From an uncultured bacterium (GTDB lineage Bacteria; Armatimonadota; JACIXR01): a stretch of DNA of 33,200 nucleotides. Each line of letters starts with the position of its first letter. The first letter of the stretch is position 1. Made by a program: the position numbers and the translations under genes. Positions 6,194 to 27,185 of the stretch are shown here, piece by piece. Location: assembly GCA_938041455.1 (NCBI GenBank), contig CALITO010000026.1, positions 1-33,200 on the forward strand, written 5' to 3'. The notes below the pieces were generated by a model. That model had not been told where the DNA came from. It was given only the letters and a program-made list of their open reading frames with translations, and searched no databases.

Positions 6194-6919
6194 ATAGCCT
6201 ATGGAATTCCTTTTTAATTTCACAGCTGCAAGGGTTGTTGTGCCACTACCAAGAAAGGGGTCGACAACTGTCTCATAGGCGAAACTGAACATTTTGATAA
6301 GACGCTTTGGCAATTCCTCGGGGAACATCGCTAAGTGTTTGTCCTGCTTTTCCCCAGGGAAATTCCAGTGACCGCTAAAATATTGATTCCATTCTTCATC
6401 GGTCAGTTTTGAGGCTTCTTTTATTTCCTTACTAACCTTGGGTGGCTTGCCAGGTTTCTTAAAAATTAAGATGAATTCGTAATCCAATTTAATGATGCCA
6501 TTTCTGGGATAAGGATAAGAACCCATTACTGTGGCTCCACCCGTGGTGTGACAAGTAGTGACTTTCTGCCAAATAATCGCTCCCATATAATCAAAGCCGA
6601 TGGTTTCACAGAATTTAATGATTTCTGTTCTTATCGGAATGACTTTTTATCTCCCATAATAGACAGAGCGGGCGAACTGATCACCAATGTTAATACATAG
6701 CCTACAACCTTTATGTAAAATACGGTGGCATTCCTTCCACACCAAATTTAGGTTATTTATATATTCTTCATAAGTATCGTTAAAACCGATCTGCCCTGGG
6801 GCTCCATAATCTTTGAGTTGCCAATAGGGGGGAGAGGTGACAATAAGATGAATTGATTCATCCGGTATCTCCTTCATCCATCTCGCATCGCCGATAATTA
6901 TCTTATGGGTCGTCCTCAT
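6179..6919 (-). pseudogene. Beta-class DNA methyltransferase, interrupted by an in-frame stop and C-terminally truncated
   Basis: The frame from the ATG at 6919 encodes an N-terminal part with GDAR and the catalytic motif TSPPYW, then meets TAA at 6649-6647. The same frame continues without any shift through KVIPIRTEIIKF, GFDYMGAIIWQK and TTGGATVMGSYPYP to the AdoMet-binding DPFLGSGTT and ends at a second TAA at 6179. Motif IV before motif I marks the beta class; SPPY favours N4-cytosine. As I recall homologues, the residue at the internal stop is Tyr (GR-Y-KV), so a single change in TAT/TAC explains the break. The C-terminus ends abruptly after NSIGY, where the 53-bp repeat begins, so some 20-40 residues appear lost. 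No restriction enzyme gene is adjacent. It is probably a dead orphan methyltransferase; read-through is possible but unproven. Confidence 0.8.
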
Positions 6920-6961: not shown

Positions 6962-8221
6962 TCAATCGCGAGTGCTTACCTTATTCCCTCTTTGCTCACC
7001 TATGGAGGGGCAAAGACAGAAAGTAGCGAGACCTTTAGATAGGGAACGGGAAATCGCCTCCTGAATATCCTCCCCCTTTATCCTCTCTATCTTCTCCAGC
7101 GTCTCTTCCAAAGGAACAATTCTCCCCTTATAATGAAGGGATAGGGCAAGGCGCATCATCCTCTGAAGAGAAGATTCAAGAGCCAAGAATATGGCGTTCT
7201 TTAACTGCTCCTTTGCCCTCCTCAACTCTTCCTCTTCAACCCCTTTATCCCTTAACGATATAAGTTCTTCCTCTATTAGTTCCCCTAATATTCCCTTGTT
7301 GCTGGGATGGGAAGCGGAGTAGATGGTGAGAAGCCCACCATCCTCCAAAGCCAAATCGTCCACTTCAACATCATAGCATAAACCTCTTTCCTCCCTTAAT
7401 TTTTGGAACAAGCGAGCAGCGCTTCCCCCTCCCAAAAGAGTTGCCAGAACCCCGTAAGCGTAATGGGATTCATCATCCACTCTTGAGCTCTCCATAGCAA
7501 TACAGGTGTGCACTTGGGTAGTGGAATACACCATCTCCCTCTCCCCCGGCTGAAATTCAGGCGGTGGGCTACCCCCTTTTTTCAAGCCGTTGAGCCTGCC
7601 AAGTAGCCCCTCCAATTGCTTCAAAAAAGTTGGCACCTCTAGCCTTCCCGCAGCTGAGACGATTACCGCCTCGGGATGATGATATAGAGAAAGGAATCCT
7701 CGCAAGTCCTCCCTACTTATGGAAAGGAGCGTCTCCTCGGAGCCAAGTATAGAGCGCCCCAAGGGATGTCCATCCCAGGCAAGGGAGAGGATTTGCTCCT
7801 TAGCCACCTCCTCCGGATTATTATCCCTTTCCCTCATCTCCTCAAGTATCACCAGTTTCTCCTTCTCCAATTCCTCAGAAGAAAGAAGGGGATTTTTGAA
7901 TATATCAACCAGAATATCCATAGCCACTTTTAATTCCTTATAGGGAACCCTGATGTAATAGAGGGTGTAATCCTTATGGGTTAAGCCGTTGAAATCCCCT
8001 CCCAACATATCAGTTATGCGGGCTATCTCTTTCCTATCATAGCGCCGACTCCCCTTGAAGAGCATATGTTCAAGTAGATGGGCTATTCCCGCCTTCTCCC
8101 CCTCGTCTTTCGCTCCCACCTTTAGGAGAATACCCAGGGAAACGGTGTAGCAGGAAGGGTTACTTTCTACTGCTACCCTTACCCCGTTGTCCAGTATTAC
8201 CTCTTTGGGACCCTCTTCCAC
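6962..8221 (-). CDS. M16 family zinc metallopeptidase (insulinase/mitochondrial processing peptidase-like)
   Basis: The 419-aa protein has the inverted zinc motif HLLEH (H48, E51 and H52), with E128 in VILEEM as the likely third metal ligand 76 residues after H52. The length and two-half architecture match bacterial M16B peptidases, which often sit directly after pnp. There is no signal peptide, so it is cytoplasmic. The GTG start at 8221 lies inside the pnp end (62-bp overlap), with AGAGGA a few nucleotides upstream, so translation is probably coupled. Family members cleave peptides or processing intermediates; the natural substrate is not known. Confidence 0.88.
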   Translation of the reverse strand: MEEGPKEVILDNGVRVAVESNPSCYTVSLGILLKVGAKDEGEKAGIAHLLEHMLFKGSRRYDRKEIARITDMLGGDFNGLTHKDYTLYYIRVPYKELKVAMDILVDIFKNPLLSSEELEKEKLVILEEMRERDNNPEEVAKEQILSLAWDGHPLGRSILGSEETLLSISREDLRGFLSLYHHPEAVIVSAAGRLEVPTFLKQLEGLLGRLNGLKKGGSPPPEFQPGEREMVYSTTQVHTCIAMESSRVDDESHYAYGVLATLLGGGSAARLFQKLREERGLCYDVEVDDLALEDGGLLTIYSASHPSNKGILGELIEEELISLRDKGVEEEELRRAKEQLKNAIFLALESSLQRMMRLALSLHYKGRIVPLEETLEKIERIKGEDIQEAISRSLSKGLATFCLCPSIGEQRGNKVSTRD

Positions 8222-10316
8222 CTGTCCTCTGCAAGATAGGGGAGAATAGTTTCTTCCTCGTCAGGGTTACCCTTCCCGATGGTTCCACACTTTCAACCCT
8301 CACCAGAACTTCATCGCCTACCTGTAGGACTTCCTCCACTTTGTTTATGGGGCGAGTGGAAATCTCCGAAATGGGGAGGAAACCTTCCTTTCCTGGGAGT
8401 ATCTGCACAATAGCGCCCGTGGGGGATATGCTCTTCACCTTTCCAGTATATACATCCCCTGGCTTCACCTCAGTGGCTATCCCCAATATTCTATCCCGAG
8501 CTGCTTCCCCCTTCTCAACGCTCGGGGCGGTTATATATACCGTCCCATCCTCTTGGATGTCTATCTTGACGTCTGTTTCCGCCACTATTTTCCGAATGGT
8601 CTGCCCACCCGAGCCTATCACCAAGGGTATCTTATTGGGAGGTATAGTGATGCTAAAAACGAGGGGGGCATAAGGAGAAATACTCTCTCGGGGAGCGGAT
8701 ATGACCTCCTCCATTTTATCCAAGATTACATAACGCACTTCCTTAGCCCTTTGAAGTGCAGAGGAAATCATCTCCTCCGTCAGACCGTTGTTTTTCACAT
8801 CCAGTTGAATTGCGGTTATCCCCTCCCTCGTTCCCGCCACCTTGAAGTCCATATCGCCAAACCTGTCCTCTATCCCTTGAATATCGGTCAAAAGGGTGAA
8901 CCTTTCCCCCTTGCTCACCATCCCAATTGATATACCCGCGACCGCTTTTCTGACCGGCACACCAGCATCCATAAGGGCGAGGGAAGAGGCGCAGACGGAA
9001 GCCATAGATGTGGAACCGTTTGATTCCAAAACCTCCGATACCAAGCGAATGGCATAAGGGAATTCCTTCTCGGGGGGAATAACTTGTTCAAGGGCTCTCT
9101 CAGCGAGAAAACCATGCCCTATCTCCCTCCTCGTCGGTCCCCTAAGTGGTTTAACCTCTCCTGTGGAAAAGGGGGGAAAGTTATATTGATGCATAAACCT
9201 CTTGCTCTCTTCCTCCAATATCCCTTCCAACCTCTGCACTTCCTCTAAAGCGCCCAAAGTAGCGGTGGTGAGAACCTGCGTCTGCCCTCGGCGGAAAAGC
9301 CCTGAACCATGGACGCGAGGAAGAAGCCCCACTTGACATTCTATCTCCCTTATCTCCTCCGGAGTTCTCCCATCCGGCCGTCTCCCCCTCTCCATTATCT
9401 CCTCCCTCACTATCTCCTCCTCCACCGCCTCTATGGCAAGGGCTATCTCCTTGCCTCGCTCCGGATAAAGCCCATTCAGTTTCTCGAACAGCCTCCCCTC
9501 AACCTCTTTCATCGCCTCTTCTCGTCCCTTCTTATCCTCAATGAGAATAGCGGATGCCAACTCCTCCCTGTGCTGGAGGACAACTTCCTTCATCTCCTCC
9601 GGATAGGATAGAATAGCGTAGTCATTCCTCTTCTCCTTACCAAATTTCTCCTTGAGCTCCAACTGCATATCGATAAGGGCCTGTATATAAGGGTATGCGA
9701 ATTCAATAGCGGAGACTATTTCCTCCTCACTCGCCTCGCTCCCCTCGAAATCCAGCATAACAATCCTCTCCCTCGTTCCCGCAATAACCAGGTTGAACTT
9801 CTTCTCCAGAACGGCGAGAGAGGGAGGATTTATTATAAATTCTCCATTCTCCTTGCTAACCCTGAGAGCACCTATGGGACCGTTGAAAGGAATATCGGAC
9901 AGGGTGAGGGCAGCAGAAGCACCTATAACGGCGAGCACATCGGGGGGATTGAGAGGGTCGGCACAAAGGGGAAGGGCTATTACCTGAACCTCGTTCCTCA
10001 ATCCCTGGGGAAATAAGGGACGAAGAGGACGGTCCATCATCCGAGCGTAGGTGATAGCCCGCTCGGAAGGTCTCCCCTCTCTTTTGAAGAATCCCCCGGG
10101 AATCTTGCCAACCGCGTATAACCTCTCCTCAAACTCACAGGTAAGAGGTAGGAAATCTATGTCCTCCCTCGTCTCGGGGGAAGAACAGACCGTTACCAGA
10201 ACCAGGCTGTCCCCCTCCCTTACCAAAACGGAGGCGTTTGCCTGCCCCGCTAACCAACCCGTCTCTATTATCAGTGGTCTCCCACCTATTTCTTTTTCCG
10301 CTTTTGTTTTCTCCAT
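8160..10316 (-). CDS. pnp: Polyribonucleotide nucleotidyltransferase (PNPase)
   Basis: The 718-aa protein has the complete PNPase architecture: first RNase PH domain (about 1-145), an alpha-helical linker (about 225-310), a second catalytic RNase PH domain (about 315-550), KH (555-615) and S1 (619-688). The phosphorolytic core residues in [15 protein letters not shown] are present (D484, D490, K492, equivalent to E. coli D486, D492, K494). The enzyme degrades RNA 3' to 5' using phosphate and can act in a degradosome. The KH loop reads GSGG rather than the usual GKGG. A short basic Gly/Arg/Gln-rich tail (about 698-718) follows S1. The ATG lies 1 bp after the rpsO stop, with AGAGG inside the rpsO end. 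Confidence 0.97.
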
Positions 10317-15420: not shown

Positions 15421-17448
15421 ATGTTGGTCCCTTTGGATTGGCTTAGGGAGATCCTGAATATAGAACTCCCAGCAGAGGATATCGCCGATATCTTAACGAT
15501 GCTCGGTTTGGAGGTTGAGAATATAGAGGAAGGGGAGATCCCCGTCCTTAATGTAAAAGTGACCTCTAACAGGGGCGATTGCCTCTCCATCATAGGAATA
15601 GCCAGGGAACTTTCCGCCAAGCTCGACCTCCCTTTGAATCTCCCGACTTTCCCCCTTGAGGAGGGGGATAAGAAAGTGGAGGAACTTGCAGAGGTGGAGA
15701 TTTGGGACCCTGAACTCTGCCCCCGCTACTGCGCTCGCATCGTTCTTGGAGTTGAGGTCAAGGATAGCCCTCAATGGCTTCGGGAAAGGCTCACGAGGGC
15801 AGGTGTAAGGACGATAAATAACATCGTTGATGCCACTAATTACACAATGCTCCTAACCGGTCAGCCCATCCACGCCTTTGATTATGACCTCCTTAGAGGA
15901 AAGAAAATAATCGTCCGCAGGGCAAAAGAAGGGGAAAGGTTGACGACCTTAGATGGGGTAGAGAGAACTCTTTCCTCAGATATGTTGGTCATCGGGGACG
16001 CTCAAAGGGCGATCGCCATCGCCGGGGTTATGGGCGGGCAGAACACGGAGGTGACTTTGGGCACGGAAAATGTGCTCATAGAAGCAGCTCACTTCAACGC
16101 CGGCTCAATAAGGAAAACCGCTCGCAAGCTCCAGATGTCAACCGATGCCTCCTACCGCTTTGAAAGATATGTTGACCCCTATTTACCCCCCATAGCCGCT
16201 ACCTATTGCGCATCCCTTATTAAAAGCTTGGCGGGTGGGGAATTAGCCAAGGGCATCATAGATGCCTTCCCCAAGAAAATATTCCCTCATATAATAGAGT
16301 TTCCCTATAAACTGACCAATCACCTCCTCGGCACCAATCTCACCAAAGAGAGGATTATCTACTATCTGCGCAACCTCCACTTAGATGTTAGGGAGGAAGG
16401 GGAAAATCTGGTGGTAGTGTGTCCCACATATCGTCCCGACCTTAAGGAGCCGGCGGATTTGGTGGAGGAAATTGCTCGTCTTTATGGCTACGAAAAAATC
16501 CCTACTACCCTTCCCCTTACCAGGGTTAGCATCGGCTGTAAAGCGGAGGGGCTTGCCTTTGATGAGGAGTTGAAGGAAATACTCCTCCGCCTTGGGTTGT
16601 GGGAGATAACATCTCACAGCCTCATCAGCAAGGTAGAGAGGGAGAAATTCTTCCCCCATTTAGAGGTGGTGGGCGTGCGTAACGCCCTCAGCGAGGAATA
16701 CTCCTTCCTCAGACCTTCCATTTTCATTTCACTGGCTAAAGTTGCTTCCCATAACTTCTCCTACGGCGTTGAGGATCTATCTATCTTTGAGTTGGGCAAG
16801 GTATATAAAAGGGAAGGAGAGGAAAAGGTTTTGGGAATAGCCGTTGCTGGTAGGAGGGAGATAAACTGGCGGATGGGTAAAGAAGGATTGGAGAACGATT
16901 TCTTCTACCTGAAGGGCATAGTGGAGGGAGTTTTGGAGGCTCTGGGATTGGAGGGTTATTTCCAGCCCGTCCAACATCCCCTTCTCCATCCCCTTTGCAC
17001 AGCCAAGATACTTGCCAATGGCAGGGAGATAGGTTTCATAGGGGCTGTAGGGGAGGAGTTAGGACGATTCTACGATATAGAAAAGCCCCTCTATCTGGGG
17101 GAACTCAGCGTGGATACACTGAGGGAGGAAAGTAAAAAGGAGAAAATGTTCACCCCCTTGCCCAAATTTCCCTCAGTGCGAAGGGATATCTCCTTGATCG
17201 TGAAAAAAACATTGACCGCTGAAACGATAACCAATATAATTAAAGAAATTAGCGGAGACCTGTTGGAGGATATATTTCTGTTTGATGTTTATGAGGGGAA
17301 GCCCGTGCCGGAGGGGGAGAGGAGCCTCGCCTTCTCCCTTTCCTTCCGGGCGAAAGAGAGAACGCTCCCCTCGGAGGAGGTAGATTCTTTAGTAAAAGAG
17401 ATAAAGGAGGTTTTAAAGGAAAAACTGGAGGCAAAGATAAGAGAATGA
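15421..17448 (+). CDS. pheT: Phenylalanyl-tRNA synthetase beta subunit lacking the EMAP tRNA-binding domain
   Basis: The 675-aa protein opens as bacterial PheT (PLDWLREI, LTMLGLEVENIE at residues 25-36), but then jumps straight to VKVTSNRGDCLSIIGIARELS (46-66). The roughly 110-residue EMAP/OB-fold domain that normally lies between these segments is absent. The B3/4 editing-type region, B5 domain, catalytic-like core and C-terminal FDX-ACB anticodon-binding domain (about 583-675) are present. With PheS it charges tRNA-Phe; pheS is not in this window. Usual bacterial length is about 790-800. The ATG is 10 bp after the sialidase-like stop and has no good Shine-Dalgarno, so coupling is possible. 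The 3' end overlaps the next gene by ATGA. Confidence 0.95.
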   Translation: MLVPLDWLREILNIELPAEDIADILTMLGLEVENIEEGEIPVLNVKVTSNRGDCLSIIGIARELSAKLDLPLNLPTFPLEEGDKKVEELAEVEIWDPELCPRYCARIVLGVEVKDSPQWLRERLTRAGVRTINNIVDATNYTMLLTGQPIHAFDYDLLRGKKIIVRRAKEGERLTTLDGVERTLSSDMLVIGDAQRAIAIAGVMGGQNTEVTLGTENVLIEAAHFNAGSIRKTARKLQMSTDASYRFERYVDPYLPPIAATYCASLIKSLAGGELAKGIIDAFPKKIFPHIIEFPYKLTNHLLGTNLTKERIIYYLRNLHLDVREEGENLVVVCPTYRPDLKEPADLVEEIARLYGYEKIPTTLPLTRVSIGCKAEGLAFDEELKEILLRLGLWEITSHSLISKVEREKFFPHLEVVGVRNALSEEYSFLRPSIFISLAKVASHNFSYGVEDLSIFELGKVYKREGEEKVLGIAVAGRREINWRMGKEGLENDFFYLKGIVEGVLEALGLEGYFQPVQHPLLHPLCTAKILANGREIGFIGAVGEELGRFYDIEKPLYLGELSVDTLREESKKEKMFTPLPKFPSVRRDISLIVKKTLTAETITNIIKEISGDLLEDIFLFDVYEGKPVPEGERSLAFSLSFRAKERTLPSEEVDSLVKEIKEVLKEKLEAKIRE

Positions 17449-18095
17449 ACGATGTGTCCCTGAAGAAAGTGGAGGAGGCAATTGCCGGTGTGCGAGGCAT
17501 CAGCGGGGTCAGGGTCGTGGCCGATGAAGAGGGCAGAATTGAGGAAATCCATGTGGTGGTCGAGGCTAATCGTTCGCCTAAGCAGGTCGTGAGGGACATA
17601 GAATCCGTCCTTTTGGCGAAGTTAGGATTGAGCGTTGACCACCGCAAGATAAGCGTTGCCCAGTTAGGAGAAGAACCGCATATAGTCCAAACCCGCCTGA
17701 AGTTGGTTGATATATCGCTCTCCATATCCGCCATAAGGGCGAAAGCAGTAGTCCGATTGAAGAGAGGAGAAGAAACATTAGAGGGAGAGGCAACTGGACC
17801 GGCAAGCACTCACAACATTCCTTATCTCTTCTCCCAGGCAACCCTCAAAGCGGTGGAGAAATGCCTTCCTGAGGAGGTCTCCTTCTCCCTTAACGATTTA
17901 ATAATAACGGATTCTAAGGGAAGGGAGACGGTCGTCGTGCTCGTTGAGTTGGTTACTATGAACGGAGAGGAGCCGCTTGCGGGCGCCGCCTTGGTCAAGC
18001 AGGACATCGGCAAGGCGACCGTTTTGGCAACCCTCAACGCCATAAACAGACGCCTTGGCTTATATTTGAGCGAAGCGAGCGCGAAAAAAGAATAA
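17445..18095 (+). CDS. Conserved protein with LeuA-regulatory-domain-like C-terminus
   Basis: The 216-aa cytoplasmic protein overlaps pheT by 4 bp (ATGA). Residues 1-75 look like a small alpha/beta domain (GVRVVADEEGRIEEIHVVV, QVVRDIESVLLAKLG). Residues ~85-207 have the beta-beta-beta-alpha plan of the allosteric domain of 2-isopropylmalate synthase: AKAVVRLKRGEETLEGEATGP, a helix, then ETVVVLVELVTMNGEEPLAG, and an ending DIGKATVLATLNAINRRLG that matches the LeuA style D-x-x-x-A-x-x-x-A-x-LNA-x-NR. There is no catalytic TIM barrel. Ligand sensing is inferred from this resemblance by eye. It precedes a micro-ORF and two HD-GYP genes. I do not recognise a named family. Confidence 0.6.
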   Translation: MNDVSLKKVEEAIAGVRGISGVRVVADEEGRIEEIHVVVEANRSPKQVVRDIESVLLAKLGLSVDHRKISVAQLGEEPHIVQTRLKLVDISLSISAIRAKAVVRLKRGEETLEGEATGPASTHNIPYLFSQATLKAVEKCLPEEVSFSLNDLIITDSKGRETVVVLVELVTMNGEEPLAGAALVKQDIGKATVLATLNAINRRLGLYLSEASAKKE

Positions 18096-18161
18096 AAACC
18101 CCCTACCTCCCTGCGAAGTGGAGCGAAAGGGAAAATGTAAAGCTGAGCGGGAGCGAGATTC

Positions 18162-18185
18162 TCACCCCTTAGCGGGAAGGGGTGA
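18162..18185 (+). promoter_or_regulatory. GC-rich hairpin upstream of the micro-ORF
   Basis: TCACCCCTT and AAGGGGTGA form a perfect 9-bp stem with loop AGCGGG. There is no T-tract after it, so it is a poor intrinsic terminator. It lies 12 nt before the Shine-Dalgarno of a 27-codon ORF and could shape translation or mRNA processing between the 216-aa gene and the HD-GYP genes. Confidence 0.4.
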
Positions 18186-18212
18186 AGATGAAAAACGGGG
18201 AGGTGCATAACT

Positions 18213-18296
18213 ATGGCGAGGTTATATAAGCTCATCGCAGCCGCCCTGGGTTTTCTCCTGCTCGGCGGAGCGCAGAGCGTTTTTTGGCCGAGGTGA
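18213..18296 (+). CDS. 27-aa hydrophobic microprotein
   Basis: A 27-codon ORF starts at ATG 18213, preceded by GGGGAGGTG (18198-18206), one of the better ribosome sites in the window. The peptide starts with MARLYKL, then has a hydrophobic stretch (residues 7-20, IAAALGFLLLGGA type) and ends in WPR. It looks like a single membrane-spanning or signal-like peptide. It lies between the 216-aa protein and the membrane HD-GYP genes on the same strand. No family is recognised and function is unknown. Support is the Shine-Dalgarno, membrane-segment composition and operon position; conservation is needed to prove it. Confidence 0.5.
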   Translation: MARLYKLIAAALGFLLLGGAQSVFWPR

Positions 18297-18324
18297 GCAG
18301 GGAGAGTAGGGGGGAAAGGAAAAA

Positions 18325-19644
18325 GTGGAGCGAATGCCATTAAAACTCAAGATATACGCCCTGAGCGTGGGAGGGAGCTCCCTCCTCTTCCTCCTCTTCC
18401 TCTCCTTTTATTTCCCCTTCTCCCCTCTCAAATTGCCCTTCCTCGTCCTTCTTGTCGCCGCCACTATTCTTTCCCTCTTCGGCGTTTCCCTCCCCAAGGG
18501 AAGTATAGAGGAAATTCCCTTATTCCCCCTCGTCACCGCTTCCATAATCCTCTATGGTCCCGCAGCGGGTGCCTGGCTCGACTCCTTCTCCTTCTTTCTT
18601 TCTTCTTTACTGGACAAGAAAAAAAGGAAGGACATCCTCACAAAGGATTTGAACAAAGCCCTTTTCTATCTCCCCATCCTTCTTCTCAACATAGGGTGCT
18701 TCAATTACTCAGCAGGGGTAGCGGGAGTGGCTTGGGTTTATGCCAGTCATTTTGCCCCTCCCCACGAGTGCTATCGCCACATCCTCGCTCTTTTCCTTAT
18801 GGGGATGGCATATATAGTTGCGGACGGGCTATTCTCCTCTATAGGGGGAGCTCTTTGGGAAGGTGCTCCCTTTTGGAGAATTTGGCTCGCCAATCGTTCC
18901 TGGAACATTTTCTTCGCCTTTTTGGAGATAGGGTTGGGCGTGCTTTATGTCCTCATTTACTATGTGGGGGGAATCCCTCTGCTTTTGTTGGGTTTCTCCT
19001 TCCTCGCCGTGCTTCGCTTGGGCTACCTCGTCCATATAGAGAGGGAAGAAATCCTCAGCCTTTTCCTAAGGACGCTCCACGAACAACTGGAGAAATTGGA
19101 CCTACCCACTAAGGAGCATTGCGAGATGGTGGGTAGGTTGGCGAGTGCTATGGGAAGGGCGATGAACATTCCCTTTTGGAGAAGGGAACAACTCGCTTAC
19201 GCGGCGAGATTGCACGATGTGGGGAAGATAGCAGTAGACGAGAGAATAATAGAGGGTTCTGAGCCCCTCACCCCTCGGGAGAGGGAAGAAATACGCAGGC
19301 ATACATTGGTTCCTTATCAGGCTATGAGAAAGGTCCCCTATCTCCGCCAGATTGCCTATTGGATACTTCTCCATCACGAGAAGATGGATGGCTCGGGCTA
19401 TTGGGGAAGGTTAGGGGAGGAGACGCCATTGGAAGCGAGGATATTGGGAGTAGTTGATGCCGTCCACGCCCTTACTTCACCTCGTCCCTACCGCAAGGGG
19501 CGCCCTACTTATACATTAGAGGAAGCGATGGATATTCTTTATCAGGAAGCGGAGAAGGGAAAATGGGATGAGAAGGTCTTGAATGCCCTGAGGGCTGTTA
19601 TCCGACGCGATGAGGAGCGGAGGAGAATGCTGAATGAGGGGTAG
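18325..19644 (+). CDS. Membrane HD-GYP phosphohydrolase (candidate c-di-GMP phosphodiesterase)
   Basis: The 439-aa protein begins at GTG 18325 after AAAGGA. Residues 10-235 contain about six to seven membrane segments, a sensor-type membrane region possibly like MASE domains. The C-terminal HD domain (about 255-430) has HDVGK (H297, D298, K301), H326, HHE (350-352), DGSGYW (355-360, replacing the usual GYP) and VVDAVHALTSPRPYR. These are HD-GYP hallmarks, so it probably hydrolyses cyclic di-nucleotides, although the Pro of GYP is Trp here. It overlaps the next, related gene by 11 bp. No GGDEF domain is in the window. Confidence 0.85.
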   Translation: MERMPLKLKIYALSVGGSSLLFLLFLSFYFPFSPLKLPFLVLLVAATILSLFGVSLPKGSIEEIPLFPLVTASIILYGPAAGAWLDSFSFFLSSLLDKKKRKDILTKDLNKALFYLPILLLNIGCFNYSAGVAGVAWVYASHFAPPHECYRHILALFLMGMAYIVADGLFSSIGGALWEGAPFWRIWLANRSWNIFFAFLEIGLGVLYVLIYYVGGIPLLLLGFSFLAVLRLGYLVHIEREEILSLFLRTLHEQLEKLDLPTKEHCEMVGRLASAMGRAMNIPFWRREQLAYAARLHDVGKIAVDERIIEGSEPLTPREREEIRRHTLVPYQAMRKVPYLRQIAYWILLHHEKMDGSGYWGRLGEETPLEARILGVVDAVHALTSPRPYRKGRPTYTLEEAMDILYQEAEKGKWDEKVLNALRAVIRRDEERRRMLNEG

Positions 19645-20890
19645 TATACTCTGGCGTCTCTACCAGACAGCGGTAATCGTCTTCGCCTTTTTTCTGCTTT
19701 TTAAGAGTGCCCCCCAATTAGGGGAAAGCTTGGTGAGTTATGACTATCAGCAGTGGGAAGCCCTGGCTCTCCTCGGCTTCTTGCTTCTCCTCGCCGAGCT
19801 GAACTATATCCCTGCAAGGGAAGGCGATTTCATAACTGCAAGTTATCCCTTCCTACTCGTCCTCCTCATCGGTTTGGGCTTCCCCACAACGATATGGCTC
19901 CTCTGGTTTATGGCTTTTCTAATCCCGATTATATCTCAGAGGGAGAACTTGTGGGGTTCACTAACTGAGAGTTCCCTCAAGGTCGTCCCCCTCTACTTCC
20001 CCAACCTTCTCTTTCAGGCGGTGGGAGGGAAAGCCGAGACCTTTGAGATTAGGGTTTTGTATGCCCTCCTCGTTGGAATAGTCTATTATGTCTGCGAGAG
20101 GGTTATGGTGGGGATCGAGGTCGCTTTGAGGGAGGGGAGATTGTTCAAGAGAAATTTTTGGATAAGCAGATGGGAGGAAAGCCATTTGCGTTATCTCCTT
20201 TTCCTAATAGGAGCGATGCTCCTCGCCGCAGCTTACAGCACAACTTTTCAGCTTCCCTACTTTATTTTAATGGGCTTTTACCTTTCACTTGTCATCTACA
20301 TCATCCGTTCCGCGGAGATGAACAGGCTTGGTAGGAGAGGGATTTTCGAGGCTTTCTCCGAGATAGTGGAGGGAAGATGGATGGGAATGCAGGAGCACGG
20401 TAAAAGAGTGGGAATGTTAGTGGAGGAGATAACGAAGATTTTGGACCTCCCCTATGAGGAAAGGGAACGATTGATTTTGACAGCGATACTCCACGATATA
20501 GGGGTAGTTGATACCCCCTACGAGCTCCTCAACCACCCTACTCCTAAGGGTGAGCAATCGGAGGAATTTAAACATCATGTTATAAGGAGCGCCGAAATAT
20601 TGGAGGCGTTCCCCCAACTCAAAGAGTTAGCTTATTATGTTCGTTATCATCACGAGCGTCCCGATGGGAGCGGATACCCGGAGGGGAGAAAGGGCAAGGA
20701 GGTGCCGTTTTGGGCATATGTCATTGGTGCTTGCTGCGATTTTGATGATATGACCTGCTATAAATCTTGGCGGGAAAGGATTGCTCCCGCCAGAGCATTG
20801 AGGATGATGGAGGAGACGGTGGGAAAGCTTTACGATGGAAGGGCTGTTGCACTTTTGAGGGAAGCGGCGAAAAGGCTTAGGCGCTATTGA
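19634..20890 (+). CDS. Second membrane HD-GYP protein with altered metal/lysine motif
   Basis: The 418-aa protein overlaps the first HD-GYP gene and has GGAGGAGA before its ATG. It has about seven membrane segments within residues 8-225, then an HD-GYP domain: H255, HDIG (287-290), HHE (339-341) and an intact DGSGYP (344-349). The Lys that normally follows HDIG is Val (V291), and the usual DAYDAMT segment reads CCDFDDMTCYKSW. It shares topology with the upstream gene and probably arose by tandem duplication. The changed motif may mean altered activity or a regulatory partner role. Confidence 0.83.
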   Translation: MRGSILWRLYQTAVIVFAFFLLFKSAPQLGESLVSYDYQQWEALALLGFLLLLAELNYIPAREGDFITASYPFLLVLLIGLGFPTTIWLLWFMAFLIPIISQRENLWGSLTESSLKVVPLYFPNLLFQAVGGKAETFEIRVLYALLVGIVYYVCERVMVGIEVALREGRLFKRNFWISRWEESHLRYLLFLIGAMLLAAAYSTTFQLPYFILMGFYLSLVIYIIRSAEMNRLGRRGIFEAFSEIVEGRWMGMQEHGKRVGMLVEEITKILDLPYEERERLILTAILHDIGVVDTPYELLNHPTPKGEQSEEFKHHVIRSAEILEAFPQLKELAYYVRYHHERPDGSGYPEGRKGKEVPFWAYVIGACCDFDDMTCYKSWRERIAPARALRMMEETVGKLYDGRAVALLREAAKRLRRY

Positions 20891-20909: not shown

Positions 20910-22400
20910 TCAGGGAGCTATGGTATAAGCCTCCTCAGAAAGGCTCGCCTCCTTCGTCTGACTTACGCTGACCTTTGCTCCCTCAGGCACCGCATCACCC
21001 CTCTCTATCACTTGCTCACCTTCATTTATACCCTCCACTACCTCCATTAAATCCCCTATGACCGCTCCTATCTTGACCTTCCTCTTAACCGCCTTATTTC
21101 CTTCCACAACTGAGACATAGTTATTTCCTCCCTCCAAATATACGCAGGAGCGGGGGAGAAAGACGCCTCTCCTCTGCCCCACGATTACCCTCGCCCTTGC
21201 GAACATACCCGGTTTAAGCATAAAAGAGGGTTGAGGTAAGGTTACCCTTACGAGGAATGACCTGCTATGAGGGTCGCCGGCAGGGGAAATCATACCTATC
21301 CTCTGCTTGAATACCTGACCTGGCATCGCATCAAAGATCAAGTCAACCGTTTGCCCTACCTTCAACCGCGCAACATCCAGTTCAGAAGCCAGACAATCAA
21401 CATAAAGGGAACCTATATCCACCAGAACGAAAAGGGGCATCCCTGGCGCTACCACTTCCCCCACATCCACCAACTTGGTGAGCACATAGCCATTTATAGG
21501 AGAAGAGATACTCGCTTCCTTCAAACTGTTAAGGGCGAGATTATAAGCTGCTTTTGCTTGTTCCACCCCCGCAAGCGCTGACTCCATATCCTGCTGGCGT
21601 ATCCTCACCTGTTGCTCGGAAGCTTTAGCCAATTCATACATCGCTTCCGCTTGTCTTACATTCTGTTCCGCTATCCTTATTTGTTCTTCCCTTGGACCTA
21701 TCTTAACCAGTTCTACTTGTTGCTTAGCGGATTCAACCTGTGCCTTCGCCACATCGTATTGCATCTGGGCAAGGTCAAAAGTCTGCCTTGAGACAGCACC
21801 CTGGGAGAAGAGCATCTGCACCCTTTGATAGTTGCTTTCCGCATTACGCAAGTTAGCCTCCGCCTGAGCGAGCAGGGCCTCCACCTGCTTTACCTCCTGG
21901 GGGCGAGCTCCGGTTTTGAGCATCAAGAGGTTCTCCTTCGCGGCGTTAAGGGTGGCCTCCGCCTGTTGGAGGGAATACTGAACCTGCTGCTTCTGCAACT
22001 CATAAGCAGTTTTAGCTTGCTGGTAGCGGGTTTGGGCGCTTTCCAACAGTGCTTTGGCTTGATTGACTTGATGCATAATATCAGAGGTATCTATCTGCGC
22101 CAGCAATTCTCCTCTCTTTACATAATCACCCTCCTTCACCAACACCCTGCTCACCCTACCCCCAACCTTGCTGGAGACTTTCGTCTGAAGTATAGAGGAA
22201 ACGGAACCCGGCAAGTTGACGATATCTTTAACCTCCATAACCTTTGCAATATAAACATCCACAGGATATTCTTCCACGCCCCTAACCATTTCCCTTGCCT
22301 GCTGTGCTCTCATTATCACCACACGGCGCAGGACAGCTCCAATAACAGCCAAAGCAAGCAGGATAACAATTATTAGAATTACTCTCTTAAGACCTCTCAT
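20910..22400 (-). CDS. RND/HlyD-type periplasmic adaptor (membrane fusion protein)
   Basis: The 496-aa protein has an N-terminal membrane anchor (residues 7-24), a lipoyl half-motif (72-105, VGGRVSRVLVKEGDYVKRGELL), a very long alpha-hairpin/coiled coil (about 108-293, rich in Gln/Ala/Glu), the second lipoyl half (297-330, SPINGYVLTKLVDVGEVV) and beta-barrel and membrane-proximal domains. It bridges inner-membrane pumps to TolC-type channels. The start is 4 bp past the TolC-like gene stop with GGGAGG upstream. Its RND partner is divergently encoded at 24072. The hairpin of about 180 residues is longer than that of AcrA. Confidence 0.9.
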   Translation of the reverse strand: MRGLKRVILIIVILLALAVIGAVLRRVVIMRAQQAREMVRGVEEYPVDVYIAKVMEVKDIVNLPGSVSSILQTKVSSKVGGRVSRVLVKEGDYVKRGELLAQIDTSDIMHQVNQAKALLESAQTRYQQAKTAYELQKQQVQYSLQQAEATLNAAKENLLMLKTGARPQEVKQVEALLAQAEANLRNAESNYQRVQMLFSQGAVSRQTFDLAQMQYDVAKAQVESAKQQVELVKIGPREEQIRIAEQNVRQAEAMYELAKASEQQVRIRQQDMESALAGVEQAKAAYNLALNSLKEASISSPINGYVLTKLVDVGEVVAPGMPLFVLVDIGSLYVDCLASELDVARLKVGQTVDLIFDAMPGQVFKQRIGMISPAGDPHSRSFLVRVTLPQPSFMLKPGMFARARVIVGQRRGVFLPRSCVYLEGGNNYVSVVEGNKAVKRKVKIGAVIGDLMEVVEGINEGEQVIERGDAVPEGAKVSVSQTKEASLSEEAYTIAP

Positions 22401-22404
22401 CTTA

Positions 22405-23709
22405 TCATTCCTCCCTTACTTCTCCAATTGCCTTGTCAAGGTTAATTTTAGCTATATGAAAATCAAAAAGAGCGTTCACATAGTTGACCTCCGCCTGGGT
22501 GAGGGCAGATTGTGTATCGAGGAGTTCCACCGAAGTGGAAACCCCCGCCTGGTATCTTGCTTCAGCGAGGCGGTAAGCTTCCCTCGCCTGTTCAAGGACC
22601 TTCCCCGCTACCTCTAATTTAGCCCTGGCATTCTCCAAACTCGTATAGGCGTTTTTCACCTCCAATTTTATTCCATCCTCCAACTGAGCAAGGTTAGCCT
22701 TCAAAGTCTCTATGGTCGCTTGGACGCTCCTCTGCTTTGCCTTATTTAAGCCACTATCAAAGGGAGTAAAGGTTAGGGAAAGAACCGCGTTCCAGTTCGT
22801 TTCTCGGGGGGAGAAAGTTGTAGTGGGGCGCTGCCAATTGTAGAAAAAGCCCAATGCTAAATCTGGGTAGTTCTCCCTTTTGGTTAAGGCGAGGTTCGCC
22901 TCCGCTATATCTATCCCCAATTTTAAAATCGCTACTTCCTTTCGGTTCCTCAGAGCCTTATTCAAATACTCTTCAAGAGGAAGGAGTTGGAACTGGGGAG
23001 CAGGTACCTCCTCTTGCAATTCCGTGGGCGTTGTGGGGTCTATACCCATCGTGGTTAGGAGCGCGGATTTGGACATTTCATAGGCATTCTGAACGCTTAA
23101 AAGCGATTGGCGAACATTGGCGAGATTTACCTCCGCTCGGAGGACATCAAAATGGGGAACGGTTCCCGCCTCATAATTGGCTTTAGCCACCCGCAAGGCT
23201 TCCTCCGCTGCCTTCAGAGTGGTGGAAAATATCACTATGCTTCTCTTCGCCTGAAGGGCCTGTAGAAAAGCCCTCTTAGTAGAAGTAATAACATCCTCCT
23301 TAGTCCTGTTTAATTCCACTTCCGCTTGCTCCAACCCCAATAGGGCAAGCTTCTCACTTAGGGAGAGCTTCTTGCTAATATCCAAGGGATATAAGAGGCC
23401 CAGAGAAGCCTTGTAGGAGTAAAGTTCCCCTATGGTCATCTCCATTGGGGGCATACCGGGAATAAAAGAGGGCACCTTTATCGTGGTCTTCTTGTCTATG
23501 CGGAGGGCGGAAGCGCTAAGGGAGCTGTGAATTTTCTCCCCTGCCTTTATCATTTCCAGGTTGCTTTTAGCGCTCAACAATTTCTCCTCCCCAACCCTTA
23601 TCTGTTTATTGTTCTGGAGGGCTATCCTGACAGCCTCATCTATGGTAAGAGGGTTGGGCAGAACAACTAAATAGGAGAGAAGAAGGAGGATTTGCCTTAT
23701 CTTTTTCAT
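22405..23709 (-). CDS. TolC-family outer membrane efflux protein
   Basis: The 434-aa protein has a short signal peptide (residues 5-20) and the duplicated TolC/OEP pattern: LTIDEAVRIALQNN at 22-35, a middle repeat around 215-240 (LEEYLNKALRNRKEV) and long helical hairpins ending in AREAYRLAEARYQAGVSTSVELL. It forms the outer-membrane duct of a tripartite exporter. The ATG overlaps the AbrB-like stop by ATGA, indicating translational coupling. Confidence 0.9.
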   Translation of the reverse strand: MKKIRQILLLLSYLVVLPNPLTIDEAVRIALQNNKQIRVGEEKLLSAKSNLEMIKAGEKIHSSLSASALRIDKKTTIKVPSFIPGMPPMEMTIGELYSYKASLGLLYPLDISKKLSLSEKLALLGLEQAEVELNRTKEDVITSTKRAFLQALQAKRSIVIFSTTLKAAEEALRVAKANYEAGTVPHFDVLRAEVNLANVRQSLLSVQNAYEMSKSALLTTMGIDPTTPTELQEEVPAPQFQLLPLEEYLNKALRNRKEVAILKLGIDIAEANLALTKRENYPDLALGFFYNWQRPTTTFSPRETNWNAVLSLTFTPFDSGLNKAKQRSVQATIETLKANLAQLEDGIKLEVKNAYTSLENARAKLEVAGKVLEQAREAYRLAEARYQAGVSTSVELLDTQSALTQAEVNYVNALFDFHIAKINLDKAIGEVREE

Positions 23710-23954
23710 TCCTCCATCAACTCCCTCAAGAGGTCGGTGAGCCTCAGGAGGGCTTCAAGAGCGGAGGGGCGGACGAGGAAGATACAATTGTTAAAAGGGT
23801 TTACAAAGGCAAGGAGTTTATCGCCCGCCCGAAGTTCCAGCCTCCGCCTCGCTTCTATAGGAATGACCACCTGCCCCCGCTCCCCCACCGTTACCGAGCC
23901 AACAAAACTTTTCCTGATCAATTCTTCGTGCTCCTCAAAGGGCATTCTCTCCAT
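23706..23954 (-). CDS. AbrB/MazE/SpoVT-type DNA-binding protein
   Basis: The 82-aa protein contains the swapped-hairpin AbrB signature from about residue 18: GSVTVGERGQVVIPIEARRRLEL (20-42) then RAGDKLLAF. A C-terminal helix (64-82) may mediate oligomerisation. No toxin gene is next to it, so an antitoxin role is unlikely. It heads the TolC-HlyD operon, and its own promoter lies back-to-back with that of the RND gene, which suggests autoregulated control of the exporter. GGGAG lies 9 nt before the ATG. Confidence 0.85.
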   Translation of the reverse strand: MERMPFEEHEELIRKSFVGSVTVGERGQVVIPIEARRRLELRAGDKLLAFVNPFNNCIFLVRPSALEALLRLTDLLRELMEE

Positions 23955-23985
23955 TGCTAATCACTCCCTTTCAATTTTAAACCTT

Positions 23986-24013
23986 ATAGTATCATATTTT
24001 TCAAATAAATCAA
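23986..24013 (-). promoter_or_regulatory. Promoter of the AbrB-TolC-HlyD operon
   Basis: On the minus strand TTGATT (24013-24008) and TACTAT (23991-23986) are 16 bp apart. Its -35 lies only 11 bp from the -35 of the divergent RND promoter, so one bound regulator could control both. Each box is a 4/6 match. Confidence 0.4.
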
Positions 24014-24024
24014 GCATTTTCTAC

Positions 24025-24052
24025 TTGACTTATATTTCCATATTGTCATAAT
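24025..24052 (+). promoter_or_regulatory. Promoter of the RND pump gene
   Basis: TTGACT (24025-24030) and CATAAT (24047-24052) are each 5/6 matches to consensus and are separated by 16 bp. The expected start is around 24059, giving a leader of only about 13 nt with a weak GAGGCG. Confidence 0.55.
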
Positions 24053-24071
24053 TTTAGCGAGGCGAACTTGT

Positions 24072-27000
24072 ATGAATATCGCTGAATTCAGTGTCAGAAG
24101 ACCAATAACCGTCCTGATGGTGATAATGGCGGTCTTCCTCCTCGGCTTTGTTACCCTAACCCGCCTCAATATAGACTTCCTACCCGACATCACCCTCCCC
24201 GTGGTCACCGTGACCACTGTCTACCCTGGCGCAGGACCAGAAGAGGTGGAATCCTTCATTACAAAGCCAATAGAAGAAGCTGCTGGGTTAGTCAAGAATT
24301 TAGAGGAAATTTCCTCCTTCTCTATGGAAGGTGTCTCCAGCGTGATTGTCCGTTTTAAGTGGGGAACGAACATAGATTATGGGGCTATGGAGCTGAAGGA
24401 AAAAATAGACCCAATTGTAGATACCTTGCCTTCCGAGGCGCACCGTCCCGTGATAACCAAGATGGATATATCCGCTATGATGCCCGTAGTGGCTATTGCC
24501 ATAACGGGCACGGACCTCCAAACTTTGGGAGATTTGGCAGAAGATGTGGTCAAGCGCGATTTGGAAAGGGTGAGCGGAGTAGCAACAGCTACACCTATGG
24601 GGGGACTTGAAAGGGAGATAAGGGTGGAAGTAAACCCAAGCAGGTTGAAAGCCTATGGACTTGCTATAGAGCAGGTAGTTCAGGCTTTGTCAGCGGAGAA
24701 CCGCAACTTGCCCACCGGTTATATCAAGGGACAAAAGAACGAATATCTTGTGAGGGTGGTTGGAGAAGTGAGAAAACCCGAGGAATTAGGAAATATAACC
24801 TTAGACTTTAAAAACGGTGTCCCCGTCCTTCTGAAAGATGTAGCAGATATAAAAGATACCACTAAAGAACCCACGAGCTATGCTAGAGTTAAGGGGAAAC
24901 CCGCAGCCTTAGTGATGGTTTATAAGCAATCGGGGGCTAATACAGTGGATGTTTCCGATAGGGTGCAAAAGGCTATGAAGGAAATAGAAAGGGAACTTCC
25001 CCCTGGCGTTTCAATGGAAGTGGTGATGGACCAAGCTGATTACATCCGAAAATCGATAAAGAACTTGGAAGATGTAGCGCTGGAAGGGGCTTTCCTCGCT
25101 GTTGTGATAATCTTCCTTTTCCTCACCACTTTGCGGGGCGCTTTCGTCATCGCCCTTTCCATTCCCCTCTCTATATTCGTAGCTTTCATATATATGTTCT
25201 TCAGCGGAACTACCCTGAACATCGTGACTATGGGTGGATTGGTGATTGCCATTGGGAGGATAATAGACGATTCCATCGTGGCGCTGGAGAATATATATAG
25301 ACATATGGAGAGGGGGGAACCTCCCAAAACCGCTGCGGTAGAGGCGGTGAAGGAGATAGCGATGCCCATTGTTGCCTCTACCTTAACCACCGTAGCTGCC
25401 TTCTTCCCCATCCTCTTCATCACCGGCATTACCCAACAGTTGTTTTCCCAGATGGTCCTCGTTTTCTCCGTCGCCCTGTTGACATCTATGTTCGTCGCTT
25501 TCTTCGCCGTGCCTATGTTCGCATCCCGCTTGCTGCGTCCTCTGGGAGAAGAAAGCCAAAGGAAAAAGAATATTGTGGATAAGGTAGTTGATAGCTTCCA
25601 AAGGGGCTATAGCGCTGTTGAAGAAATATACAAGGGGATGTTAAGCTGGGTTCTGCGACATAGGAGAACAACGGTTGGTATCGGGATATCTACCTTTATT
25701 ATCAGCCTTTTCCTCATCCCCGTCATCGGTCTGGAGTATATACCCGCCCTCACCAACCTCATAACCGTCGTAGTAAAAACACCTGTGGGAACGAGTTTGG
25801 AGGAAACAAACCGCACAATAAGGGAGGTTGAGAAATACTTCGCCGAGGTTCCGGAATTTGAAAGATATTCCGCCTTTTGTGGAGGTGGAGGACCGGGAGG
25901 TAGAGCTGTCTCTATGGCGATGGGGGGTGTAAATCCTAATCAAAGCGGTAGAGTTATGGGGATGCTTAAGCCTATGAGAGAATTGAAAAGGTCTGTGGGA
26001 GAAATAAAAAATTGGCTCAGGGAAAGGATTTATAAGATACCAAGGGCCAAATTCAGCTTTATGGAGATGACCTCCGCTATAACCGGAGGAAGAGGGGCAG
26101 CGGATATAGATATAGAGATAAGGGGGGAGGACTTATCCACGCTCGCAGATTTGGGCAACCAGTTAGCCGATAGGATGAAGAAAATACCCGGCGTTTACGA
26201 TGTAGACCTTAGCTGGACCGCCGGCGCCCCCGAGTATCAGGTTATGATTGATAGGGAGAAAGCAAGGACCTTCGGCATTACCGCGGGACAGATAGGTTCT
26301 GCCCTCTATACTTTATTGGGTGGTCAGCAGGTGACGAAATATAAAGAAAGGGGAAAGGAATATGACATAAATGTCCAAGCTCCCCCTTCCCAAAGGGAAT
26401 GGGAGGCGACCCTGAGGAGAATGCCGATATACTCTCCAGTCACAAAATCCGCTATCCCCCTTGAGATGGTCGCCCAGGTCAAATTGGCAACTGGCCCTTC
26501 CTTAATAACTCGTAGACAACTCCAACGCACAATAGATATCACAGCCTCAAAAGGGAACAGAGCATTAGGAGATATAGTCAGAGATATACACAAAGAACTC
26601 CAAGCGATGAAATTCCCTGCTGGCTACACAACGAGCATCAGGGGAGCTGAGGAGACCAGACGGGAAGCGTTTAGTGGACTCTTCATCGCCTTAATAGCAG
26701 CTGTTTTCCTCATCTATATAATCTTGGCTTCCCAGTTTGAATCTCTTATTTATCCCCTCGTGGTTATGACAGCCATACCAATGGCTCTGATAGGCGTTAT
26801 GCTGGGATTACTGTTGGGAGGGCAGACAATCAGTGTCCTCTCTATGTTAGGTATATTGATGCTGACGGGAATAGTAATAAGCAACTCCGTGCTCTTAGTT
26901 CAGTTTATAAACCTTCAGAAAGAGCGAGGCTTGGAGATAAGTGAAGCGATAATGAGGGCGGGAACTATCCGGCTCCGACCCATTCTTATGACCGCCTTGA

Positions 27001-27185
27001 GCACGATATTCGCAATGATTCCTATGGCTCTGGCGATAAGGGAAGGCTCAGAGATGTTCAAGCCACTGGCTATTGCCGTGCTCGGGGGGCTTTCCACCTC
27101 CACTTTTCTAACTTTGCTCGTTGTCCCCGCCCTCTATAGCCTATTTGAAGAGTGGGCGAGAGGACGCCACTCCTTCAGGGGATAA
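24072..27185 (+). CDS. RND-family (AcrB/HAE-type) efflux pump
   Basis: The 1037-aa protein has the RND layout: N-terminal SVRRPITVLMVIMAV membrane segment, porter domain with VYPGAGPEEVE, a TM bundle with the proton-relay pair D399-D400 in GRIIDDSIVALENIYRH, then a second duplicated half. In the second half the usual Lys in TM10 is replaced in GIVISNSVLLVQF, as in HAE homologues that use Asn. It expels toxic or lipophilic compounds through the HlyD-TolC assembly encoded next to it on the other strand. Its stop overlaps the UPF0126 stop by 11 bp, tail-to-tail. Confidence 0.95.
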   Translation: MNIAEFSVRRPITVLMVIMAVFLLGFVTLTRLNIDFLPDITLPVVTVTTVYPGAGPEEVESFITKPIEEAAGLVKNLEEISSFSMEGVSSVIVRFKWGTNIDYGAMELKEKIDPIVDTLPSEAHRPVITKMDISAMMPVVAIAITGTDLQTLGDLAEDVVKRDLERVSGVATATPMGGLEREIRVEVNPSRLKAYGLAIEQVVQALSAENRNLPTGYIKGQKNEYLVRVVGEVRKPEELGNITLDFKNGVPVLLKDVADIKDTTKEPTSYARVKGKPAALVMVYKQSGANTVDVSDRVQKAMKEIERELPPGVSMEVVMDQADYIRKSIKNLEDVALEGAFLAVVIIFLFLTTLRGAFVIALSIPLSIFVAFIYMFFSGTTLNIVTMGGLVIAIGRIIDDSIVALENIYRHMERGEPPKTAAVEAVKEIAMPIVASTLTTVAAFFPILFITGITQQLFSQMVLVFSVALLTSMFVAFFAVPMFASRLLRPLGEESQRKKNIVDKVVDSFQRGYSAVEEIYKGMLSWVLRHRRTTVGIGISTFIISLFLIPVIGLEYIPALTNLITVVVKTPVGTSLEETNRTIREVEKYFAEVPEFERYSAFCGGGGPGGRAVSMAMGGVNPNQSGRVMGMLKPMRELKRSVGEIKNWLRERIYKIPRAKFSFMEMTSAITGGRGAADIDIEIRGEDLSTLADLGNQLADRMKKIPGVYDVDLSWTAGAPEYQVMIDREKARTFGITAGQIGSALYTLLGGQQVTKYKERGKEYDINVQAPPSQREWEATLRRMPIYSPVTKSAIPLEMVAQVKLATGPSLITRRQLQRTIDITASKGNRALGDIVRDIHKELQAMKFPAGYTTSIRGAEETRREAFSGLFIALIAAVFLIYIILASQFESLIYPLVVMTAIPMALIGVMLGLLLGGQTISVLSMLGILMLTGIVISNSVLLVQFINLQKERGLEISEAIMRAGTIRLRPILMTALSTIFAMIPMALAIREGSEMFKPLAIAVLGGLSTSTFLTLLVVPALYSLFEEWARGRHSFRG

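Follow-up and report, generated by a model that had tools for sequence, protein, structure and literature searches.

A Putative Cyclic-di-GMP Control Cassette Behind pheT

The 33,200-nt stretch of DNA analysed here (the window; assembly GCA_938041455.1, contig CALITO010000026.1, positions 1 to 33,200) belongs to an uncultured bacterium of the Armatimonadota lineage JACIXR01, whose genome is a 2.2-Mb assembly of 50 contigs. Directly behind pheT, on the plus strand, lie a gene for a 216-aa two-domain protein, here called LEU, a structured RNA, a micro-open reading frame (micro-ORF) for a hydrophobic peptide of 27 aa, and genes for two membrane proteins which, as the HD-GYP signature is incomplete in both, are called HD-GYP-type. 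Our preferred interpretation, to which somewhat less than an even chance is given, is that of a conserved cyclic-di-GMP (c-di-GMP) control cassette, in which LEU would be the sensor and the RNA would gate the synthesis of a membrane micropeptide acting as a partner of the enzyme. The evidence is computational and comprises the gene order, the fold predicted for LEU, covariation in the RNA, a long-range helix, a peptide conserved at the protein level, and the occurrence in relatives of GGDEF proteins that carry the sensor domain. The locus is regarded as more than a product of chance because its gene order recurs in two large bacterial groups and the micro-ORF is conserved as a protein. A previous sequence-only reading of the window had described the four open reading frames (ORFs) as a possible signalling unit, and all four were found again at its coordinates, the first of them sharing 4 nt (17445-17448) with the 3' end of pheT; the structured RNA (18099-18313) and the departure of the second HD-GYP-type protein from the HDxGK motif are additions to it.

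Gene Order across Relatives

Gene order was compared over 65 loci, three pairs of which are repeats (L004/L081, L010/L086, L018/L094) and several others of which are cut by contig ends. Clustering of their ORFs recovered LEU in 57 loci and HD-GYP-type ORFs in 41, and in 39 of the 65 LEU was followed on its own strand by an HD-GYP-type ORF, thereby providing the synteny by which the sequence-only reading had proposed to check its unit. The order seen in Armatimonadota, whole or in part, was pheT-LEU-HD-HD-DUF5317-PMT. Within the Bacillota group, where LEU was present in at least 160 of 398 genomes sampled, genes for a hibernation factor (HPF), SecA and a release factor often flanked the cassette; among 12 longer stretches (L193-L204), HPF, LEU, the HD-GYP-type gene, DUF5317, SecA and prfB followed one another in L194, L195, L196, L198, L200 and L204, with more than 1 kb between HPF and LEU in four of these six, and several of the other stretches were cut by contig ends. 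The names SecA, prfB and ribonucleotide reductase come from inspection of the query proteins, and those of HPF and DUF5317 from a Pfam match in a single member of each. A locus labelled Actinomycetes (L118), with HPF, LEU, RNA, micro-ORF and HD-GYP-type gene located by the RNA model R2 described below, was not counted as a third phylum because its phylum sample shares many genomes with that of the Syntrophomonadaceae genome.

The upstream neighbours differed by lineage (pheT, HPF or a ribonucleotide-reductase-like gene), as would be expected of a housekeeping neighbourhood in which LEU and the HD-GYP-type gene had merely stayed together without any functional link. LEU, RNA, micro-ORF and HD-GYP-type gene, however, remained linked while these flanks changed, and the LEU domain is also fused to GGDEF proteins (see below), leaving this explanation very improbable.

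Several variants of the arrangement were observed. Locus L193 (1849-3325) carries a tandem pair of LEU genes followed by a single RNA, a micro-ORF and two HD-GYP-type genes, and in L096 DUF5317 follows LEU and the micro-ORF with no HD-GYP-type gene. In several other Armatimonadota a DUF5317 gene paired with a PMT-like glycosyltransferase gene follows the second HD-GYP-type gene; in the window genome such a pair is located on another contig (L234, minus strand, 1587-2180 and 5-1603). Elsewhere in the window, a 135-aa ORF (6179-6586) resembles a C-terminal piece of a DNA methyltransferase, and efflux-type genes lie beside the cassette (20910-27185), namely HlyD and OEP on the minus strand and a plus-strand gene that reads as a large RND-type transporter.

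The Micro-ORF Is Conserved as a Protein

The micro-ORF of the window (MARLYKLIAAALGFLLLGGAQSVFWPR, 18213..18296) stands behind a Shine-Dalgarno sequence, GGGGAGGTG (18197..18205). By a pattern search, 40 of 65 regions downstream of LEU contain a short hydrophobic ORF, as do 36 of the 39 loci with LEU and an HD-GYP-type gene, to which L018/L094 (one genome) was added by eye; L091, with LEU and two HD-GYP-type genes, had no clear micro-ORF, and neither did two LEU loci followed directly by SecA. Homologues, mostly of 24-29 aa and many with the motif LAGGA, occur in Armatimonadota and Bacillota, typical peptides of the Bacillota group being MAKVIRAIVALATLVLAGGAAFKWF and MKLTLAKALIALAGLILAGAAVFRW. 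Some Armatimonadota peptides have WPPR, FFPPP or a proline-rich tail at the C-terminus, and a 38-39-aa variant with the tail YPPPKPPP was seen in L007, L009, L010, L013, L086-L088 and L095. Among five peptides tested, NCBIfam gave no family beyond two weak matches to a sorting-signal domain (E 0.21 and 0.30).

Conservation of the encoded peptide was evident from 60 equal-length pairs, compared within hand-made groups so that related pairs are not independent. Differences at codon positions 1, 2 and 3 numbered 240, 122 and 650, and codons with a single change were synonymous in 436 cases and not in 121, corresponding to a dN/dS-like ratio of 0.10. The 27-aa ORF is therefore a real gene conserved at the protein level, and judging by hydropathy only its product would be a single-pass membrane peptide.

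A Long-Range Helix Encloses the Micro-ORF

A long-range helix, P0, joins the strand just past the LEU stop codon to the strand just past that of the micro-ORF. In the window it runs from 18099..18114, beginning 3 nt past the LEU stop codon, to 18297..18313, directly past the micro-ORF stop codon, and comprises 16 bp with one bulge and pair probabilities of 0.99-1.0. The 232-nt fold reached -99.4 kcal/mol, compared with -76.7 (sd 4.4) for shuffled sequences (z -5.2), and the corresponding fold of L032 had a z of -6.7 and an 18-bp P0 run. From 118 loci, 72 distinct units were kept, the others being repeats or having no candidate or short flanks; their longest ungapped P0 run averaged 11.7, against 8.0 in dinucleotide shuffles, with 33 of 72 units at p≤0.02 in a test that underrates bulged helices such as that of the window (run 9, p 0.059). 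A former control, in which duplex energies of cognate and non-cognate flanks were compared (25 of 72 in the best 5%), was dropped in favour of these shuffles because relatives share the helix. Pairing in P0 therefore places the micro-ORF inside one RNA domain that extends from the LEU stop codon to just before the next gene.

The 5' strand of P0 (18099-18114) also holds ACCTCCC, which could pair with the micro-ORF Shine-Dalgarno sequence; this pairing would exclude P0, and vice versa. As a guess, P0 may let ribosomes that finish on LEU restart at the next gene while skipping the micro-ORF, thus separating two outputs.

The position of P0 closely behind the stop codon would suit a TnaC-like leader peptide, on which a stalling ribosome would rearrange P0 and so control translation of the HD-GYP-type gene. 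The length of the peptides would fit such a role, as would the tryptophan at or near the C-terminus of many of them and the PP or PPP found in many from Armatimonadota. Conservation, however, falls on the hydrophobic stretch and the N-terminal basic residues, in the manner of a membrane peptide, and the C-terminal residues vary (W, I, L or PPP), which makes a stalling peptide improbable.

A Structured RNA Leader Precedes the Micro-ORF

Between LEU and the micro-ORF, the loci carry GAGCGRAGCG and a hairpin, P3, with the loop motif AGCGR 36-49 nt upstream of the start codon; in the window, P3 is a 9-bp stem with the loop AGCGGG (18162..18185) within a leader core delimited by covariance model R2 (18136..18215, E 3.3e-4). 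A P3 stem of at least 6 bp was formed in 28 of 33 distinct leaders, compared with 10.0% of 2450 AGCGR sites elsewhere in these loci. Across 55 leaders, all 15 modelled pairs had changed on both sides (203 cells, against 76.6 in shuffles), and pairing was kept in 97.0% for helix 3 and 78.5% for helix 1 (P1), which pairs with the Shine-Dalgarno sequence. As the 55-leader alignment was fitted to the model, these counts lean towards it; the test of the P3 hairpin is independent of the model.

Model R1 was built from 9 leaders and R2 from 23, that of the window not included. Alignment A4 consisted of nine leaders picked for like folds; A3 and A4 were made without L005 and L006, which have no hairpin in their leaders; A6 held 23 matches from 32 sources, and A7 held 55 of 59 (L007, L010, L021 and L080 were missed). 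Over 48 loci, R1 gave 27 matches at E≤5, and 25 of these, including 9 training rows, fell in the gap between LEU and the micro-ORF.

Identification of the leader as a known riboswitch was rejected on the lack of an Rfam match: no leader reached the gathering score in 10 sources, window included, and around the window micro-ORF only microRNA models appeared (E 0.069 and weaker). CsrA was likewise rejected as a binder, as the AGCGAA variants contain no GGA, which is part of its consensus.

Searches with the RNA Alone Lead to LEU

Among 398 Bacillota-group genomes, in which four R2 training genomes were recognised, R2 gave a match at E≤0.1 in 69. Counted among the LEU matches listed, 55 of the 69 were situated 28-281 nt behind the end of a LEU match on the same strand, and the proportion behind LEU was 27/27 at E≤1e-6, 41/42 at 1e-4 and 52/55 at 0.01. 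The exception at 1e-4 (G334:C9) was the strongest of the 14 matches away from a listed LEU and, once fetched, was also found to adjoin LEU, giving 50/50 at E≤1e-3. Seven others of these 14 were fetched and showed no LEU or HD match, lying mostly inside other ORFs; the remaining six had E 0.058-0.076. In a second sample of 201 relatives, R2 matched 38 genomes at E≤0.05 and adjoined LEU in 25/25 cases at E≤1e-3, 13 of which belong to the training set (eight recognised by locus and five by identical coordinates or score), and in 27/30 at 0.01. R1, searched over 101 relatives, returned 9 matches in 8 genomes, six adjoining LEU and the other three with E 0.026-0.084.

The genes on the other side of the RNA were recovered in the same way. 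In 24 of 26 Bacillota-group loci fetched by their RNA match, a short hydrophobic ORF opened exactly at the last codon of the model, two of these (L164 and L177) running off the contig; in the remaining two the model ended one codon inside the ORF (L180) or the start was 2 nt further on (L174). An HD-GYP-type match followed in 24 of the 26, the contigs of L164 and L177 ending first. The micro-ORF was also kept in all eight Bacillota-group loci with LEU and an HD-GYP-type gene that R2 did not report.

These distributions bear on two other explanations of the RNA. It might itself be the receptor of a small molecule, in the manner of a riboswitch, with LEU as a sensor of the same pathway that does not touch it; the compact covarying fold, the conserved unpaired AGCGR motifs and the pairing of P1 with the Shine-Dalgarno sequence would all agree with this, as would retention of the LEU N-terminal domain where the RNA is absent. 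Riboswitches, however, usually spread to different genes, and every R2 match at E≤1e-3 in both samples is directly downstream of LEU; nor did any Rfam family match the leader at E≤1 in 8 further loci. A directly sensing RNA is on balance unlikely. A type I toxin-like unit, in which a membrane-active peptide is silenced by the fold of its own mRNA, would resemble hok in its small hydrophobic peptide, in the sequestration of its ribosome site and in its long-range 5'-3' helix. Type I toxins occur sporadically, whereas this unit stays in one position behind LEU across two large groups and gave a single R2 match per genome in 69/69 and 37/38 genomes with a match, among the candidates scored. We consider a toxin highly improbable.

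LEU Combines a LeuA-Type Regulatory Fold with a Conserved N-Terminal Domain

LEU (17445..18095), which was defined from the ORF list, Pfam, an alignment and a predicted structure, had been described from its sequence as having a C-terminal half similar to the LeuA allosteric domain without a synthase. An AlphaFold2 model made with 44 aligned sequences (mean predicted local distance difference test score 92.4, predicted template modelling score 0.66) recovered this fold. Residues 83-211 superimposed on the isoleucine-bound regulatory domain of LiCMS (3f6h_B) with a Z of 10.1 over 119 residues and a root-mean-square deviation (rmsd) of 3.5, and residues 82-204 on Mycobacterium tuberculosis LeuA (PDB 3FIG) with a Z of 8.3-8.4; Foldseek matched the model to 3hps_B at E 4.3e-7. 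Residues 82-211 accordingly have the fold of the LeuA/citramalate synthase (CMS) regulatory domain despite a Pfam score below the cut-off. Residues 1-75 form a ferredoxin-like domain (alpha-beta-beta-alpha-beta) closest to the C-terminal domains of CDF transporters and acyl-CoA synthetases (Z 8.0-9.7). Among the 44 sequences, 17 columns were invariant and 13 of them fell within residues 34-72, where KQVVRDIE is unbroken; it is therefore the N-terminal domain, not the LeuA-like one, that is most conserved. Double-stranded RNA-binding proteins at Foldseek ranks 3-6 (TM ~0.2, rmsd 16-23 Å) were not taken as evidence of RNA binding.

LEU is proposed as a small-molecule sensor because, in LeuA and citramalate synthase, the fold of its C-terminal domain serves to bind leucine or isoleucine, and by this analogy its ligand is probably a branched-chain amino acid or a related acid. 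In Sulfobacillus and similar loci (L036, L038, L040, L044 and L048), a gene upstream of LEU resembles Glu/Leu/Phe/Val dehydrogenases, a name derived from reading the sequence, which may hint at a link to branched-chain amino acids.

GGDEF Proteins of Relatives Carry the C-Terminal Domain of LEU

At E≤1e-6, a LEU profile searched against the 201 relatives had matches in 61 genomes. Of these matches, 44 were LEU genes, either complete or cut by a contig end, and many further matches spanned the C-terminal domain only, mostly in frames of ~430-600 aa. A GGDEF motif was present in 14 of 16 ORF rows with such a C-terminal-only match (L010, L076 and L086 among the 16 being one genome), and both C-terminal-only proteins tested against Pfam, L074 included, had CBS and GGDEF domains; the two rows without the motif were L074, in which Pfam found the GGDEF domain, and L079, which was outside the Pfam set. 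The possibility that the C-terminal-only matches were LeuA proteins was rejected for those read out of a larger number, which are GGDEF fusions. The profile scored the fusions at E 5e-21 to 4e-11 and gave no match at 1e-3 to the genome's own two LeuA-type proteins, themselves strong in LeuA_dimer, and is thus closer to the GGDEF fusions than to LeuA proteins of the same genome. One family carries the fusion gene ~5 kb away on the downstream side of LEU (L007; LEU 2391-3071, fusion 7814-9145 on the opposite strand). The suggestion in the sequence-only reading that a sensor feeds cyclic dinucleotide turnover, offered there as speculative, gains independent support from the occurrence of the same domain in GGDEF proteins.

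The window genome had two GGDEF and three HD_5 matches, and the cassette therefore holds two of its three HD_5 proteins. Neither of the two GGDEF proteins (L231 and L232), one seemingly soluble and the other seemingly with a membrane part by reading, was matched by the LEU profile at E≤1e-6.

The Two HD-GYP-Type Proteins Differ in Their Catalytic Motifs

The first HD-GYP-type protein of the window (439 aa, 18325..19644) and the second (418 aa, 19634..20890), whose ORFs overlap by 11 nt, matched Pfam HD_5 at 104.9 and 94.8 bits, respectively, against a cut-off of 27.2. HDxGK was kept in 37 of 37 first proteins aligned, a set that includes repeats and leaves out the cut ORFs L004 and L081; the window protein has HDVGK. 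DGSGYW replaces the GYP motif in the first protein of the window and in that of L080, and some Armatimonadota first proteins have HHKWxNG instead of HHExxDG. A MASE9 domain was above the cut-off in L046, L118 and L193 of the Bacillota group and below it in L005, and the first window protein gave no MASE9 match.

In 15 of the 21 second proteins aligned, the metal motif has lost its H or D, and many relatives encode a short second protein of ~230 aa. That of the window retains HD with V in place of K (HDIGV) and has the GYP motif (DGSGYP), and the two aligned Bacillota-group second proteins (L012 and L046) are intact. The "paired membrane HD-GYPs" of the sequence-only reading therefore hold as far as the HD_5 domain is concerned and need qualification for the second member. 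Going by their motifs, the first appears to be an active enzyme and the second, outside L012 and L046, a largely degenerate partner.

Proposed Mechanism and Relation to Known Systems

In the proposed mechanism, LEU would sense a small molecule, a branched-chain amino acid or a relative of one. The stretch from LEU to the HD-GYP-type gene would be one folded RNA domain closed by P0, within which the leader (P1-P3, with the AGCGR motifs exposed) would hold the micro-ORF ribosome site in a helix, as in most leaders modelled. When the leader opens, the peptide would be made; the first candidate for the factor that opens it is LEU, with or without its ligand. The peptide would then join the membrane enzyme encoded next, its presumed target, and set the rate at which c-di-GMP is destroyed, thereby changing the c-di-GMP level, and the second HD-GYP-type protein, where present, would be a mostly non-catalytic partner. 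In a more specific form, LEU would be an RNA-binding regulator that responds to a metabolite and recognises the AGCGR motifs; its release would yield a micropeptide setting HD-GYP-type activity, so that amino-acid status would be conveyed to the c-di-GMP level by way of an RNA and a micropeptide. This form is considered quite unlikely as a whole.

Several observations weigh against a c-di-GMP cassette of this kind. Regarding the sensor, LEU reached only 20.6 bits (E 4.4e-4) against Pfam LeuA_dimer (PF08502), short of the curated cut-off of 24.9; its profile matched no PDB sequence at E≤1; and the nearest folds of its N-terminal domain are not RNA-binding ones. In Thermosipho, Sulfobacillus and other loci, LEU is also present where the HD-GYP-type gene, the RNA and the micro-ORF are absent; as the N-terminal domain is conserved in LEU loci without the RNA, binding this RNA cannot be its sole role, and LEU must have another target or partner there. 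As for the RNA, it is reduced, divergent or unscored in some loci with a micro-ORF, 36 of the 72 units had p above 0.05 in the ungapped P0 test, and in the minimum-energy fold of the window the Shine-Dalgarno sequence pairs inside the micro-ORF and not in P1 as elsewhere. The R2 search of the 201 relatives did not report the window's own genome, its stricter filters losing weak matches and 22 of 492 candidates being scored. Lastly, neither HD-GYP-type protein of the window carries the whole signature.

Each component resembles a known system and departs from it. LEU shares the beta-beta-beta-alpha-beta-beta-beta-alpha fold of the LeuA/citramalate synthase regulatory domain (3F6H and 3FIG), but it has no synthase domain and carries an N-terminal ferredoxin-like domain. 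The membrane proteins resemble MASE9-HD_5 phosphodiesterases in having HD_5 behind a hydrophobic part, and differ from them in the GYW of the first, which has no MASE9 match, in the HDIGV of the second, and in their tie to LEU, the RNA and the micropeptide. Like riboswitches and protein-binding leaders such as the TRAP and HutP operators, the RNA is a covarying leader able to pair with a Shine-Dalgarno sequence and has a repeated short unpaired motif, whereas it has no Rfam match, its P0 helix encloses the micro-ORF, and its strong matches stand behind one gene only. The peptide resembles small membrane regulators and, by its self-sequestering mRNA with long-range pairing, type I toxin units such as hok, from which its fixed place in a signalling gene cluster sets it apart. 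We rate the cassette as a variant among second-messenger cassettes with leader RNA control. In the parts of the open-licence literature seen, no description of this cassette or of this type of second-messenger control was found.

A stand-alone version of an amino-acid feedback domain, a structured RNA that belongs to no known family, and a conserved peptide of ~25 residues are usually studied apart; in the cassette they are united with a gene of the c-di-GMP phosphodiesterase type. The same arrangement in distantly related bacteria suggests an undescribed way of controlling c-di-GMP. If the proposal is true, it would give one orphan class of HD-GYP-type enzymes a signal and represent a new coupling of metabolism to c-di-GMP.

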